Assembly (NCBI RefSeq): GCF_033115175.1
Contig: NC_084838.1
Coordinates: 91,601,968-91,665,967 of the forward strand
Direction: 5' to 3'
DNA: 64,000 nt
DNA from: Lepus europaeus
Taxonomy: Eukaryota; Chordata; Mammalia; Lagomorpha; Leporidae
Under the pieces are notes generated by a model. The model saw only the letters and a program-made list of their open reading frames with translations. It was not told the DNA's origin and did not search any database. How positions within the stretch are numbered: position 1 is the first letter of the stretch; every line of letters begins with the position of its first letter. Position numbers and translations under genes: made by a program. Of the stretch, positions 6,191 through 37,775 are shown one piece after another.

Positions 6191-6324
6191 CCTCATTGTC
6201 AACCCCTTTAATCCAGGCAATTCATTTCCAAATAGAACACACAAAAGCCAAAATATTAGAAGAAAAACAAAAACCAACCCAAGGTCAGCAAAAGGGCCTG
6301 AAGGGCCCACTTTAGTCTACAGTA

Positions 6325-6432
6325 AAGTGGTGTGGTGGGTTAAGCGGCCACTTACGACACGAGCATCCCACAGCAGAGTGCTGAAGTCCAGGCTATTCTG
6401 CTTCCGTTCCAGCTTCCTACTAAGGTACTTCT
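6325..6432 (+). mobile_element. CSINE 5' half fragment
   Basis: Carries the head ('gtggtgtggtgggttaagc') and core ('gcatcccac...ttctgcttccg'), then stops. Confidence 0.6.
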
Positions 6433-6494
6433 GGCTGCTTTAACAAAAGGGTCCTAGATTGTAAGGCTTATAAGAAATCATAATTTGACTTCTG

Positions 6495-6778
6495 TCTCTG
6501 GCTGGAGCCCGAGGATGAGGGAGGGTCTCCAGCTGTAGGCACTGCTGTGGTGCGGGTGCTTAGCAAGCACGCAGTGGACATTGAGAGCATTCTGGCCTTA
6601 AATCCTCAAATACAAGCTCATGCTACCCTGTGTTCGACTTCAGCCAAGAAATTAGATGAGAAACATTGGAAGAGAAGCCCTGATAAGAGCTGCTTTAATT
6701 GTGAAAAGCTGAGAATAATTTCGATGACATCAAGCACACAATTCTTGGTGAGCGAGCAGCTCTCTGAGAAGCAATGAG
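6495..6778 (+). pseudogene. DPYD: DPYD processed pseudogene, 5' end only (exons 1-3)
   Basis: The native gene encodes dihydropyrimidine dehydrogenase, the first enzyme of uracil/thymine breakdown. The conceptual protein matches its N terminus without introns: '[10 protein letters not shown]' and '[13 protein letters not shown]' are clear, as is 'NPDK.CFNCEKL' with N changed to S. Similarity extends into the 5' UTR ('ctctggctgg', 'ctgtaggcactg'). The initiator ATG is GTG at 6547. A one-base deletion near 6711 shifts the frame before 'ENNFDD'. Counting that deletion, similarity ends at the equivalent of c.233, which I recall as the last base of exon 3. It then passes straight into an antisense CSINE piece. 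Non-functional: about 78 of roughly 1025 codons remain. Confidence 0.85.
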
Positions 6779-6880
6779 GCACATTAACAGGGAGGTGGAT
6801 TAGAAGTGGAGAAGCAGTGCCTATATGGGATGCTGGCATTGCAAAAGGCAGCTTAACCCACCACGCCACACTGCCGGCCC
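6779..6880 (-). mobile_element. CSINE fragment joined to the DPYD retrocopy
   Basis: Begins exactly at 'gcacattaacaggg', the sequence that follows 'tttcccag' in full antisense CSINEs (compare 63940-63970). It runs to the head complement 'cacactgccggccc'. The tail half of the SINE is absent. Confidence 0.8.
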
Positions 6881-7610
6881 AGAAGTAAATTTTAACCTGT
6901 ATAACACAGTAAAAGTTGTAAAAAGTTGTAACAGTAATTACCCTCATTAGTCTCTCTTTAATAGAAGCATTTCTTTTTGAGAAACTACTCTTGATAGGAG
7001 AGGAAATTTACAGGAAAATTTCAAAATAACAGTAGTAACTTGGAGAAGAAGCAATTTGGAGTTCATTTTATTAGGATATGGAGTAGTGTTTTGGTATATA
7101 CATGGCACAACAAAATAAGATGTATGGCCACTATAACATAGCAGCAATCATAATAATAAAATTTCTCAGTGAAATTCCTATTTTATACTATTTTTATTGA
7201 CCATGTATGTTATGTAATTTAAACCTTGAAATAGTAAGTGACAGTAAAGGAACGCTATAGTGCACTCATTGTTTAAAAAATAAAAACTATGATTATGGTG
7301 TATGAAATTTTGTTTACTATGTTAGAAAGTGAAATTAAGGTAAATATAAACATAAGCAAGTGGTAATTAACATAAGAATGTCCTGGTTATTTCTTTACCA
7401 TAATCTCTATTTTACATTAGTTTGCTTTTAGGTACTTTAAATATTCAATCAGTAGGGACAGCATGTGACTCCATTTTAACATTTGTCACTAAATGTTCAT
7501 TAGTTGATTGTATGTTTATTTGTTATTCTGACACTAAATTGTATGCCTTTAGCATTTTGAAAAGTGATGTCTGATGGAATAAAATAATATAAAAAAATCA
7601 TAATTTAATT
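6881..7610. other. AT-rich spacer
   Basis: No recognisable gene or repeat. Just right of the SINE piece there is a short 'aaaagttgtaaaaagttgta' direct repeat (6910-6929). Confidence 0.4.
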
Positions 7611-7830
7611 CTCAATGTTTTGGGTGCTGGGAGGCCCAGATCTGGGTGCCAGCAGATTGGGTTCCTGTAAAGATGCTCTTCCAGGTTGGAGACTGCCCAC
7701 TTCTTGTTGGATCCTCATATGGCCAGAAGGCACTCATCTCATTCATGACTTCATTGCTTCCCAAAGGCTCACCTCCAGTACCCTCAGTGCCCCCAGGACT
7801 CCCGGTATATCCAGATCTGGGCAACACAAT
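7611..7830. repeat. Unclassified interspersed repeat, copy 1
   Basis: Shares 'ctgggtgc..gcag', 'gggttcctgt.aag..gctcttccagg', 'cttcttg' and 'tggccag' in the same order with 25027-25230. This suggests one old repeat family, possibly LTR-derived. Confidence 0.45.
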
Positions 7831-17259: not shown

Positions 17260-17313
17260 AGAGACTTGATCATATTTCATATTACAGAGACTTGATCATA
17301 TTACATATTACAG
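17260..17313. repeat. 26-bp tandem duplication
   Basis: 'gagacttgatcatatt.cat' occurs twice in tandem next to the 3' end of the RPS15A pseudogene. Confidence 0.75.
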
Positions 17314-17700
17314 AAAAAGAATCTCTGGATTTTCCCTCCTGTGTGTTTTTGTGTTGTTTCTTGGTCCATGATGCCAGCTGAGGTTGTCAGTACAATGGTG
17401 GGATGGGAGCAGGTTAGTCTGCCATTTTTCTCGATCTCCCAGTTGCACATCCAGTCTGAGGCTGATCACCCCACACTTGTTTAAGCTGCCCCTGAGGTTC
17501 ACAACAATTTCCCCAGCTCTGTGATCACCAGTGATTTCAAGTTCCCCAATGCAGCCATGCTTCATCATCACAGTTAGAAACCTGACCAAGACTTTGGAGC
17601 ACAGCCTAATAAAAACCTGGTTTTTGCCTCTCTTTTCGGTGTTATCGAAGCTTTTGAGAGTGTTGGCCAGGGCATTCATGGGCACCATTGTGGCAGCTGG
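17308..17700 (-). pseudogene. RPS15A: RPS15A processed pseudogene
   Basis: The native protein is small-subunit ribosomal protein uS8 (130 residues). The minus-strand frame from ATG at 17688 reads [13 protein letters not shown], then '[11 protein letters not shown]' and '[15 protein letters not shown]', with no introns. After 'NNLLPS' a deletion of about a dozen bases removes the 'RQFGF' segment and shifts the frame. Related nucleotides continue to the native stop ('aacacacaggagggaaaat'). Amino-acid changes throughout, the frameshift and no visible poly(A) tail mark an old dead copy. Confidence 0.88.
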
Positions 17701-17837
17701 AAAGAGGACGTCTCCTATGGGTGCTGTACGTCAGTATCCTGATAAGTATGTATTTTAGTCTTCACTTTGTCCACTTCGGTATTATTTTCAGCGTTTTCAT
17801 AGTCCATTTTGAACTGAATCGCATCTAGTTATTAAAA

Positions 17838-17950: not shown

Positions 17951-18104
17951 CTACAACACAGGCTGTCAGTAACTGAGAGTTGGCTTCCTGGACTGCAGTT
18001 TCTAACACGTTCACATTTTTTGTGGATCATGTAAGCCCTCAAATTTACTTATTTTACCAGAAAAGTAAAAAGTTTTTAGCTGAAAGGTCAATTTCAATAA
18101 AGCA

Positions 18105-19095
18105 CACAGCTCTGGCGTCGGCCTGGAGCTTCTGAGGGGACCTTGGACGCCGGGCTTCCGTTGCCTCGTGGGTCGGTGCCGCGGAGGACCCGGTCCGCCC
18201 AGAGCAGCTCGGCCAGGCGAGAATCCTCCGGGACCGGCTTCCGAGCACTGCGCAGCGGCGCCCGCAGGAGCCCGCCCACCCGGCGTGGTGCCGCCCCGCC
18301 CCGCCGGTCCTCGGAACCGCAACCCGCGGTGTGCGGTCGCCCTAAGGCCGCGACCCTCGGACGGCCGAGCCCGACCCACAGGCCCGACCCGCTCTCCGCT
18401 CCCCTCGGTCCAGAGAGCCCCGGCCTCCACCACGCTTCGGACCCGTCCCGCCCCCAAATTACCCAGGCCCCGCCCGCCACCACGTCCCCCAACCCCTCCA
18501 GCCGGTTCTTCCCCGGCCCCTGCCCCGTCCCCGTCGGTCCCGCTCCCGCTCCCTTTTAGGGGGTCTGCTCGCCCCACTTCTCCCCTCCTCCGTAGCCGTC
18601 CTCCGCGGTGCTGACCGCCTGGGGCTGCGGGCTGCGGGCCTCCTCCCAGGCAGGGGCCGCGAGCTCTGAGCTGGGAAGGTGCAGGGTGCAGGGCTCCCGG
18701 AGCCCCGAGTCCGCTGGTAGCCGGCTGGTAGTCCGCTGTCTGCGGAGCGCTCGCCCTGCCCTCGGGCCTCGGGGCCGGAGACGGTGGGAGAGGCGCCGGC
18801 GTCCTCGGGGAGGGCAGGCAGGGAGGAACGCGGTCCTCTGTCCTCGGAGCCTGGGCTCCGGAACCCGGCTGCGTCCTCGCCCTGCCTCCTCCGTCGGACT
18901 CTCAGACACAGCAGAGACGCCGCCCTCAGCGCGGACGGGCTCACCCCGGCAGGGCGCGCTCGGATTCGCCAGGACGGGAGCCTGGGCGTCGCGCAGCACA
19001 GAAGCGCTCGCTCCCCGGGGCCTTCAAAAGCCCTCAACAGTCATGGAGGAGCCCGACGACCTCCCGATTCGGTGGGCTGTGCCTGGGGACAGTCT
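18105..19095. promoter_or_regulatory. CpG-rich block 1 (CpG island candidate)
   Basis: Very GC-rich, with CpG dinucleotides retained at high density (for example 18160-18400), unlike the flanks. Such blocks usually mark promoters. No coding exon is proven: open frames exist on both strands, as expected from composition. A short plus frame starts at the ATG at 19043 in strong context (gtcATGG) but stops after 22 codons. Continues after the SINE as block 2. Confidence 0.7.
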
Positions 19096-19132
19096 CCACA
19101 TTAGAAATTAAAACAGAAATCCAAAGTGTATT

Positions 19133-19383
19133 GAGGCCAGCGCTGTGGTGTAGCGGTTGAAGCCGCCGCCTGCAGGGCTGGCATCCCATATGGGTGCGGG
19201 TTCGAGTCCCGGCTGCTCCACTTCCTATCCCACTCTGCTATGGCCTGGGAAAGCAGCAGAGGATGGCCCAAGTGCTTGGGCCCCTGCACCCACGTGGGAG
19301 ACAGGGAAGAAACTCCTGACTCTAAATTGGCGCAGCTCCAGCCCTTGGGGCCGTCTTGGGAAGTGAATCAGCGGATGGAAAAT

Positions 19384-19418
<35 letters not shown>

Positions 19419-19475
19419 TCTCCCTCTCCCTGCCTCTCTGCAACTCTGCCTTTCAAATTAATAAATAAATCTTTG
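19133..19475 (+). mobile_element. CSINE splitting the CpG-rich region
   Basis: Begins 'tgaggccagcgctgtggtgt' and ends 'ttcaaattaataaataaatc', with (ct)n at 19387-19413. Confidence 0.92.
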
Positions 19476-19589
19476 GAGGAAAAAACTGTATAAACTCATT
19501 TGATACCATAATTAACACATTTCTTATGAATGATGTATACGTTTGTTGAGATAAAAAAGAACTCTATGGAAACCCCAAAAATTAAGGGG

Positions 19590-20560
19590 CCAGGCCAGAG
19601 GCCGCAGGGGTCTTGGACGGCGCTCAGGGCCGCGGCGATCCCGTGGTGCGGAGCGGCGGCCAGGCCCTGCGTGGCGGGCAGAGCCGGGGCGGGCGCCACA
19701 CCGACGGGCGGCACTCGGGCGGTGCGTGCCATCTGGGTATCGCAGGAGCGGTTTCCACAGGATGCCCGCCGAGCTGCCCTGGCCCACCTGGTCCTCCACA
19801 CAGCCCTCCCACGTGGGAAGGCGGGCTCGGCGGCCGAGGTCTCCTCAGAAACCCCGACTGCGCTCCCGGCCGGGCCCAGGGGGCTCCGGAGGCTCCCGGC
19901 CGCTTCACCCTCACCGGCAGACCCAGGCAAGGCGCCGGGTCCGGATCCAGAACGCGTGGGCCCTGCACACCGGCCCCCGGGGCCGCGGTCTCGGCGAGCC
20001 CGCGTCAGCCTCCGGGCCAGGAGTCCGCTGGCCCCGGGAGCGCGCGTGGTGCCGGCCCGGCCGCTGCTGCTCCAGGTGAGCTGCCGCCGTGCACCTGCCC
20101 TCTCCCGCGTGGGGACTGGGGTCTCTGAGCAGTGTCCCAGGGGTCGGCGTCTTTCCTGTGGCGAGGACGGGCGTGGTGGCCCCCGAGTGCCCCAGGGCGT
20201 CGCGGGTTCTCCCCGGTTGGTTTCTCTGGGTCTCCGAGTCGCCCCCTCTGGGGAGTGCGGTGCGGGTGGGACCAGACAGGAGCCGCCCTCCTCCCGCCCT
20301 GCCCGGCCTGGGGCGAGGGCGTGGGGGCGGAGGCGGGGTCCCTGGGCCGGTGGTGAGGCCTTGTTCCTCCCGGTGAGTGACGTGGGAGCCGCCAGGGTCT
20401 TAGTGGAGGAGTCCCGGGTGGGTGTTTCGGGGGCGCCCGTGTGCGCTGCGCTGAGAGTGGGCCGAGGGCAAAGCAGGGGGTCGGGAAGGAGACCCCTGCC
20501 CTGGTGCCTGGGGTCTTCTGCGGAACGAGCAGGGATGATGCCGGGTCCCCTTCCTTCCAT
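19590..20560. promoter_or_regulatory. CpG-rich block 2 with splice-donor-like ends
   Basis: GC-rich, CpG-dense sequence. Both strands are open for 354 codons, a composition effect and not evidence of coding. On the plus strand 'ctccag|gtgagc' (donor at 20072) and 'cccg|gtgagt' (donor near 20371) fit 5' splice sites, so this could be the first exon of an unmapped transcript. Weaker minus-strand donor-like sites also exist ('ccg|gtgagg' near 19915). Confidence 0.6.
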
Positions 20561-20879
20561 TTACCGTTGTCACAATCCTCGTTTGGTTCTGTAGGATTCT
20601 CCAAAGGCTAAAAATGTTTTTTTTTTTTTTTAATAACCTTATGCAGTGTGATTCAAGCCATTGCAGTTGTTTTACTCAAATTATTCCGGCTGAGGCCGGT
20701 GGGAGTGGCTTTCCGTTGGCCTCTGGGCCCTACTGAAGTGCCTGCTCCTTGATGGGTCCCTTCTGTCTGCAAGGTGCTCCAGGCTCACCCCTACACTTCC
20801 TGTCCAGACATGGAGGAAATACGAATTTCTCTAAGGATCTCAGGGTCCTTTGCAGTCCCACTGCCGACAAACGTGTGAC
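20561..20879. other. Transition from CpG block to L1
   Basis: Includes a T14 run at 20616-20630. Nothing else is recognised. Confidence 0.35.
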
Positions 20880-37029: not shown

Positions 37030-37371
37030 TTAAAACCCATGAACCTTCAGCTGGTCATCCTTAGCCAGTCCAATCTCGACCAGGAACTGGCATATGTTCT
37101 TGCGCTGGTCACCCTGTAGCTGAATCACTTCTCCGTATTCCGGATGCTCAATCACAGTACCATTGCAGGCAAATTTCTTCTTAAACGCCTTCACTAGTTT
37201 CTTTTTATCGTAATCATCAGCGATCCCTTGGACAGTAGTTAGGGTCTTCCTGCCGTTTCTCTGTTGAATTCTTATATGGATATAATCCTCAGTGCCAGCA
37301 GGAAGCAGGTCATCACCCTGACTTGCATCAGCAAAGGGGTCGAAAGAGTGGAGGTTCTGGATGGCGGACAT
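37030..37371 (-). CDS. EIF1: EIF1 retrocopy with intact 113-codon frame
   Basis: The frame encodes a full-length SUI1-family protein, the native product of which is eIF1, a 40S-bound factor that enforces start-codon selection. It runs from MSAIQNLHSFDPFADAS to the native C terminus QLKVHGF with no gap or stop. Against the human protein as I recall it, one residue differs (K18Q). The start matches native EIF1 rather than EIF1B (which begins MST and ends differently). No introns; 5' UTR-like sequence ('ccatcgaggaaaaggaatc' on the minus strand) and a 3' UTR with AATAAA are retained. It lies inside an antisense L1. Either a recent processed pseudogene or a functional retrogene; no promoter evidence is seen. 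Confidence 0.9.
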   Translation of the reverse strand: MSAIQNLHSFDPFADASQGDDLLPAGTEDYIHIRIQQRNGRKTLTTVQGIADDYDKKKLVKAFKKKFACNGTVIEHPEYGEVIQLQGDQRKNICQFLVEIGLAKDDQLKVHGF

Positions 37372-37471
37372 ACGATACGATTCCTTTTCCTCGATGGAAA
37401 CGGCCTGCGGAAGGCTGCAGCGGGAGAAGGCGGGCGGCCCCCTTTTGTGTTTTGTTTCACATATAAGTTCA

Positions 37472-37775
37472 TGTCAGAGGCCCATGTTCCGACACAGTGG
37501 GCTAAGCCACTGCTTGGAATGCCAGCATCCCGTATCAGAGTGCCAGTTCGGGTACCAGCTGTTCTGCTTCCCATCCAGCCCCCTGCTAACGTGCCTGGGA
37601 AAGCAGCAATGGACTTGGACACCTGCCACCCATGTGGCTCCTGGCTTCAGCCTGGCCTAGACCTGGCTGTTGTGGCCATCTGGGGAGTGAGCTGGTGACT
37701 GGAAGATTCATATTCTCTTTCTCTCTCCCTCTCTCTGTCACTCTGCCTTTCAAATAAATACACAAATAAACAAAA
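37472..37775 (+). mobile_element. CSINE, older type
   Basis: Head 'gaggcccatgttccgacaca', tail 'ctttcaaataaatacacaaa'. Lies just upstream of the EIF1 retrocopy. Confidence 0.85.

Follow-up and report, generated by a model that had tools for sequence, protein, structure and literature searches.

How does a retrocopy of the gene DPYD come to stop exactly at an exon border and to continue, with the very next base, inside an antisense SINE? This question is raised by a locus in the window, i.e. the whole stretch of 64,000 nucleotides analysed here (C14:91601968-91665967). An earlier note had read the locus as an intronless DPYD copy (5' UTR plus about 78 codons with one 1-bp deletion), similarity to DPYD stopping at position 6778, equivalent to c.233, and had placed the end of the unit at 6880.

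Extent and parts of the retrocopy

Window positions 6487 to about 7591 constitute the retrocopy of a single DPYD transcript, comprising the 5' UTR, exons 1-3 and a terminal exon of about 810 nt, which starts inside an antisense CSINE and runs for about 700 nt past it. The parts are as follows (slashes mark splice junctions).

6472..6486, + strand: 5' copy of the target-site duplication, AAGAAATCATAATTT, 15 bp, one mismatch to 7592-7606
6487..6546, + strand: DPYD 5' UTR (exon 1); 6488-6585 matches C6:91831440-91831343 (minus strand) at 86.7%
6547..6585, + strand: coding part of DPYD exon 1, c.1-39, with GTG for ATG; the parent has ATG and the donor GAG/GTACAG after c.39
6586..6696, + strand: DPYD exon 2, c.40-150; matches C6:91786966-91786851 (minus strand) at 90.5% (BLAST stretch 6581-6696); parental donor TTT/GTAAGT after c.150
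6697..6778, + strand: DPYD exon 3, c.151-233; protein match to dihydropyrimidine dehydrogenase (DPD) with 78 as last residue; one base lost after codon 55, TGA at codon 74
6779..6880, + strand: exonised 5' part of the antisense CSINE; collinear with C6:91670456-91670340 (minus strand), directly after the parental acceptor AG
6881..7587, + strand: remainder of the alternative terminal exon, i.e. DPYD intronic DNA 3' of the SINE; a single match in 21 DPYD pieces
6881-6893, + strand: the SINE's own downstream duplication copy, within the terminal exon; equals the parental duplication copy
7578..7583, + strand: AATAAA, possible polyadenylation signal; parental counterpart AATCAA
7584..7591, + strand: A-rich 3' end, probably a decayed tail; boundary ambiguous between 7587 and 7597; the parental match stops here
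7592..7606, + strand: 3' copy of the target-site duplication, AAAAAATCATAATTT, pairing with 6472-6486

The DPYD part is as the earlier note described it. The 77-residue translation, with X at the codon of the lost base and at the stop, matches solved dihydropyrimidine dehydrogenase chains (presumably those of pig) over residues 4-78 with an E value of 1.7e-33, the match ending at residue 78, and counting from c.1 at 6547, with one lost base allowed for, position 6778 is indeed c.233. Exons 1 and 2 are joined at c.39/40 and exons 2 and 3 at c.150/151, where the parental gene has the donors GTACAG and GTAAGT, so that both introns are absent. As one base is lost after codon 55 and codon 74 is TGA, the copy is a dead pseudogene. 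Position 6487, between the 5' duplication and the first matching base, is a single G absent from the parent, which has C there; it may stem from the mRNA cap, although little weight can be given to one base.

The end of the unit has to be moved from 6880 to about 7591, as indicated by the flanking duplication, a step in GC content and the collinear match to the parent. GC content drops from 0.50 to 0.28 at 6883 and rises from 0.27 to 0.48 at 7622, and among the 63,289 starts of 711-bp segments in the window only 39, all located at 6881-6919, have a GC content of 0.277, the value of 6881-7591, or less. The target-site duplication has one mismatch in 15 positions; an equally good pair was obtained in one of 200 dinucleotide shuffles of the 3' region and, as a harsher control, at seven of 100 other places of the real, repeat-rich window, for which its many SINEs may account. 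The region 7578-7597 consists of 80% A and its sole pure run, seven A at 7591-7597, overlaps the duplication, i.e. there is no clear poly(A) tail.

Other features of the window lie apart from this unit. An uninterrupted EIF1 frame at 37030-37473 (minus strand) covers residues 1-113 of a solved eIF1 (4kzx_l, E value 8.7e-73; Pfam SUI1, E value 3.1e-29) and looks like an apparently intact retrocopy. A decayed retrocopy of RPS15A (uS8) lies at 17308-17730 (minus strand); a single frame of it corresponds to 40S ribosomal protein S15a over residues 1-98 (22tu_SW, E value 6.7e-42). Two GC-rich blocks at 18000-20700, with a GC content of up to 0.76 in 500-base windows, could, judged by GC content alone, be CpG islands; two long frames in this region had no Pfam match. 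An Rfam scan of the window gave no match.

The junction and its source in the parental gene

The element that follows exon 3 belongs to the same family as 78 other pieces in the window, giving 79 pieces in total, and we take this family to be CSINE, a leporid tRNA-derived SINE. In the alignment with window copies, for which 15 of the 16 other window matches starting in the first 10 query bases were used, position 6779 is the first base of antisense CSINE sequence directly after the consensus TGCTTTCCCAG, so that the junction lies at the cryptic acceptor of the antisense element, as the earlier note had proposed. The AG is kept in 12 of the 15 aligned copies, in two of them shifted by one alignment column, and is absent in three. 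The exonised piece covers consensus positions 225-340, and two of the 78 other pieces start within 10 consensus positions of the acceptor (226 and 233 as compared to 225). As two other pieces begin nearby and three of 15 copies are without the AG, the truncation point, taken by itself, would be no proof of splicing. One of these two pieces, a sense-oriented CSINE head fragment at 6320-6428, immediately before the retrocopy, covers consensus 226-336, i.e. nearly the exonised range in the opposite orientation, which is probably due to chance.

The parental gene was sought in the window's own genome, where it lies on the minus strand of C6; 21 DPYD pieces were fetched, one of them being L009, and six of the 21 contain N. 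Exon 1, exon 2 and the SINE with its flank are all found on the minus strand in transcript order, starting at 91831440, 91786966 and 91670458, respectively, within about 161 kb. Window positions 6777-7587 align to L009 4458-3650 as one collinear block in which 697 of 843 columns are identical (873 bits). The flank has one match in the 21 pieces and the SINE part 32, the best at the same place, and of the 40 scored candidates (out of 1156) none but the parent and the window itself reaches beyond query base 416 (window 6895). In the SINE part 14 of 102 ungapped sites differ from the parent. About 32 bases at window 7081-7112 (opposite L009 ~4132) have no counterpart in the parental intron, owing either to a later deletion in the parent or to an insertion in the copy.

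The earlier note had suggested looking in intron 3 for an antisense CSINE matching 6779-6880 and for a counterpart of the DNA just beyond 6880, and both are present in DPYD between exons 2 and 4. The parental CSINE is antisense, nearly of full length and flanked by two copies of AGAAGTAAATTTT, 13 bp (L009 4635-4623 and 4339-4327). Its acceptor reads CTTTCACTGCTTTTCCAG/GCACATTAACAG, also written TGCTTTTCCAG/GCACATTAACAG, with the AG ending at L009 4457, exactly at the position where exon 3 is joined in the copy. Thus, the copy records in DNA a join of c.233 to the base directly following the acceptor AG of the parental SINE. The exon 3/4 border assumed in the earlier note is borne out as well: the exon 4 acceptor of the parent lies at c.234 (TTTCCTAG/A TGC CTG), and human variant names agree, as c.234-123G>C in tables of PMC7564232 and PMC8002131 implies the same border and c.40-461delT, also in the tables of PMC8002131, agrees with the exon borders.

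From exon 2 to the parental SINE there are about 116 kb, and a further 59 kb separate the SINE from exon 4. Neither blastn nor tblastn detected the parental exon 3 in the 21 fetched pieces, six of which contain N; the exon should end in ...GAAGCAATGAG/GT, upstream of the SINE. The assignment of the SINE to intron 3 rather than to intron 2 is therefore based on the order of the parts in the copy.

Origin of the retrocopy

Based on the exact acceptor junction and the collinear parental flank, which support the splicing of exon 3 onto a SINE-derived exon as put forward in the earlier note, we are highly confident that the retrocopy represents the fossil of a DPYD mRNA in which exon 3 was spliced to a SINE-headed last exon and which was then retrotransposed. 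An antisense CSINE would have been inserted into DPYD between exon 2 and exon 4, in intron 3 by reading order, in an ancestor of the species, presumably a leporid, judging from the CSINE family. Exon 3 would then have used the internal pyrimidine tract and AG of the CSINE (TGCTTTTCCAG/GC) as 3' splice site instead of that of exon 4, and the transcript would have ended about 810 nt past this acceptor, in intronic sequence. The resulting short mRNA, composed of exons 1-3 and the SINE-headed last exon, would encode an N-terminal fragment of about 85 residues. Finally, the L1 machinery may have reverse-transcribed this mRNA, the copy beginning near the 5' end of the transcript, and integrated it at 6487 to about 7591 with a 15-bp target-site duplication.

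In the copy the frame past exon 3 reads R H I N R E V D, followed by a stop, and about 85 residues would thus be encoded by the fossil mRNA, the last seven of them derived from the SINE; these are seven rather than eight as the arginine is the split codon 78. Since the stop lies in the last exon, nonsense-mediated decay would not be expected. In the parent of today a run of G is longer by one base, with which no stop would be reached for 75 codons, codon 78 being the first; this additional G was probably acquired later, as the copy has the length of the window CSINE consensus at that spot.

Two alternatives are both very improbable. Chimaeric retrocopies resulting from template switching are known, and such a switch during reverse transcription might have joined a fragment of DPYD mRNA to a separate, intron-containing DPYD RNA, a view helped by the lack of a spliced RNA that contains both exon 3 and the SINE. 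A switch of this kind would, however, have had to occur by chance at the end of exon 3 and directly after a pyrimidine tract plus AG, in the same gene and on the same strand. Alternatively, and with equally little probability, the SINE might be located upstream of exon 3, a reading left room by the fact that exon 3 was not detected in the parental pieces read, and the join would then have been brought about by trans-splicing or another non-collinear event. This requires an exotic step, and human DPYD has an intron 2 of about 55 kb and an intron 3 of about 88 kb, lengths which would place exon 3 before the SINE, given its distances of ~116 kb from exon 2 and 59 kb from exon 4.

Still less credible is a DPYD retrocopy in which an independent CSINE insertion and a deletion later created the join, since, for all the density of CSINEs (79 pieces in the window), the further fragment at 6320-6428 and the two of 78 other pieces that start near the same consensus position, 707 bases past the SINE match the DPYD gene beside a SINE with the same join, the whole unit lies inside one duplication, and the join falls at c.233 and at the acceptor AG. 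A separate insertion with its own target duplication, which the earlier note had named as the competing explanation, is ruled against by this single bracketing duplication and by 6881-6893, which is the duplication of the parental SINE. Insertion, later deletion and template switching do not account for a join that unites the end of exon 3 and the SINE acceptor of the same gene, with a collinear flank. Two further readings were rejected: a deletion inside a full-length DPYD retrocopy, with 6881-7591 as its 3' UTR, as this segment matches between exons 2 and 4, and an origin of 6881-7591 at the window locus itself, in view of the GC step and as there is no other match in the window.

Fate of the isoform and significance

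The fossil mRNA would also bear on what became of the isoform in the parental gene. The copy has AATAAA at 7578 where the parent has AATCAA, the other AATAAA motifs of the copy, at 7155 and 7279, being far upstream. Past AATCAA the parent continues ...CTTGACAAAACTTGTTATAAGTAGATGTTTTTGTTG, in which the spacing of a CA and of a U/GU-rich stretch is plausible. Since similarity to the parent is lost about 4 nt past the hexamer, cleavage can be placed only roughly, and a later site may be hidden in 7588-7597. The difference between AATAAA and AATCAA suggests that the isoform may be extinct, with the direction from AATAAA to AATCAA presumed, as only two sequences are compared. Thus, we tentatively consider, at somewhat less than an even chance, that the CSINE acceptor gave rise to a short DPYD mRNA in the germline, which was retrotransposed, and that the parent later lost this isoform via a change from AATAAA to AATCAA with its acceptor intact. 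If so, both the birth and the death of a transposon-derived exon would be legible.

A rough age can be given for the retrocopy. Between 6881-7585 and the parent there are 71 differences in 671 ungapped sites (K2P 0.115), and with a neutral rate of 2-3 x 10^-9 per site and year, this distance being shared between two lineages, the copy would be about 19-29 million years old.

Shemesh et al., cited in PMC7290577, are said to have described retrocopies as records of splice isoforms in 2006. A transient exonisation, to our knowledge, normally leaves no trace once its RNA is gone. The recording of isoforms by retrocopies, the exonisation of antisense SINEs and early polyadenylation driven by transposable elements (TEs) are each already in print. 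In antisense Alu exonisation, according to passages of PMC2879366, an antisense intronic SINE likewise provides the host gene with a pyrimidine tract and a 3' splice site; in Alu elements this tract is complementary to the poly(A) tract, and the exon is closed by a 5' splice site about 120 nt further on, whereas the CSINE tract is internal to the element and the DPYD exon runs to the 3' end of the mRNA. IL18R1-Short, a case of TE-linked intronic polyadenylation set out in part of PMC13232192, resembles the DPYD case in that an intronic TE truncates the host mRNA and protein. In this isoform, which is expressed today, the poly(A) signal comes from an L2 element, whereas in DPYD the SINE contributes the acceptor, with the presumed signal located past the element, and the event is known from the DNA of a retrocopy. 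The MIR302CHG retrocopy, in the account that passages of PMC7692494 give, similarly reveals an exon combination of its parent gene that had not been described, the difference being that the DPYD exon recorded here is SINE-headed and brings the mRNA to an early end.

Alus embedded in 3' UTRs offer another parallel, as they too place SINE sequence in the terminal exon of mRNAs that are retrotransposed: according to PMC5199112, processed pseudogenes were more frequent for human genes whose 3' UTR Alus are antisense (15.57%) or mixed (18.45%) than for those whose Alus are in sense orientation (12.84%). That association is genome-wide and human, whereas ours is a single CSINE case that shows no cause. 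Among the matches listed in a literature search, outside which most subscription journals lay, no title dealt with a retrocopy of a SINE-terminated mRNA or with one of DPYD, and nothing among the matches listed was on point for the DPYD exon border or for CSINE exonisation.

Most exonisations are transient, as stated in a passage of PMC2584115. The DPYD locus keeps one in the form of DNA, with the junction resolved to the base, nearly the whole terminal exon, a molecular clock and a source SINE that is still readable, and the example is unusually complete, as source, product and junction can all be read. The raw material for such events is common: the exact acceptor motif TGCTTTYCCAG occurs 13 times on the gene-sense strand of 19 DPYD pieces of 10 kb, a count of the motif as such, whether or not within a CSINE, and with small overlaps between pieces left in. 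Taken together, this suggests that lost TE-derived isoforms may be surveyed via retrocopies in which an exon is joined to the acceptor of a TE.
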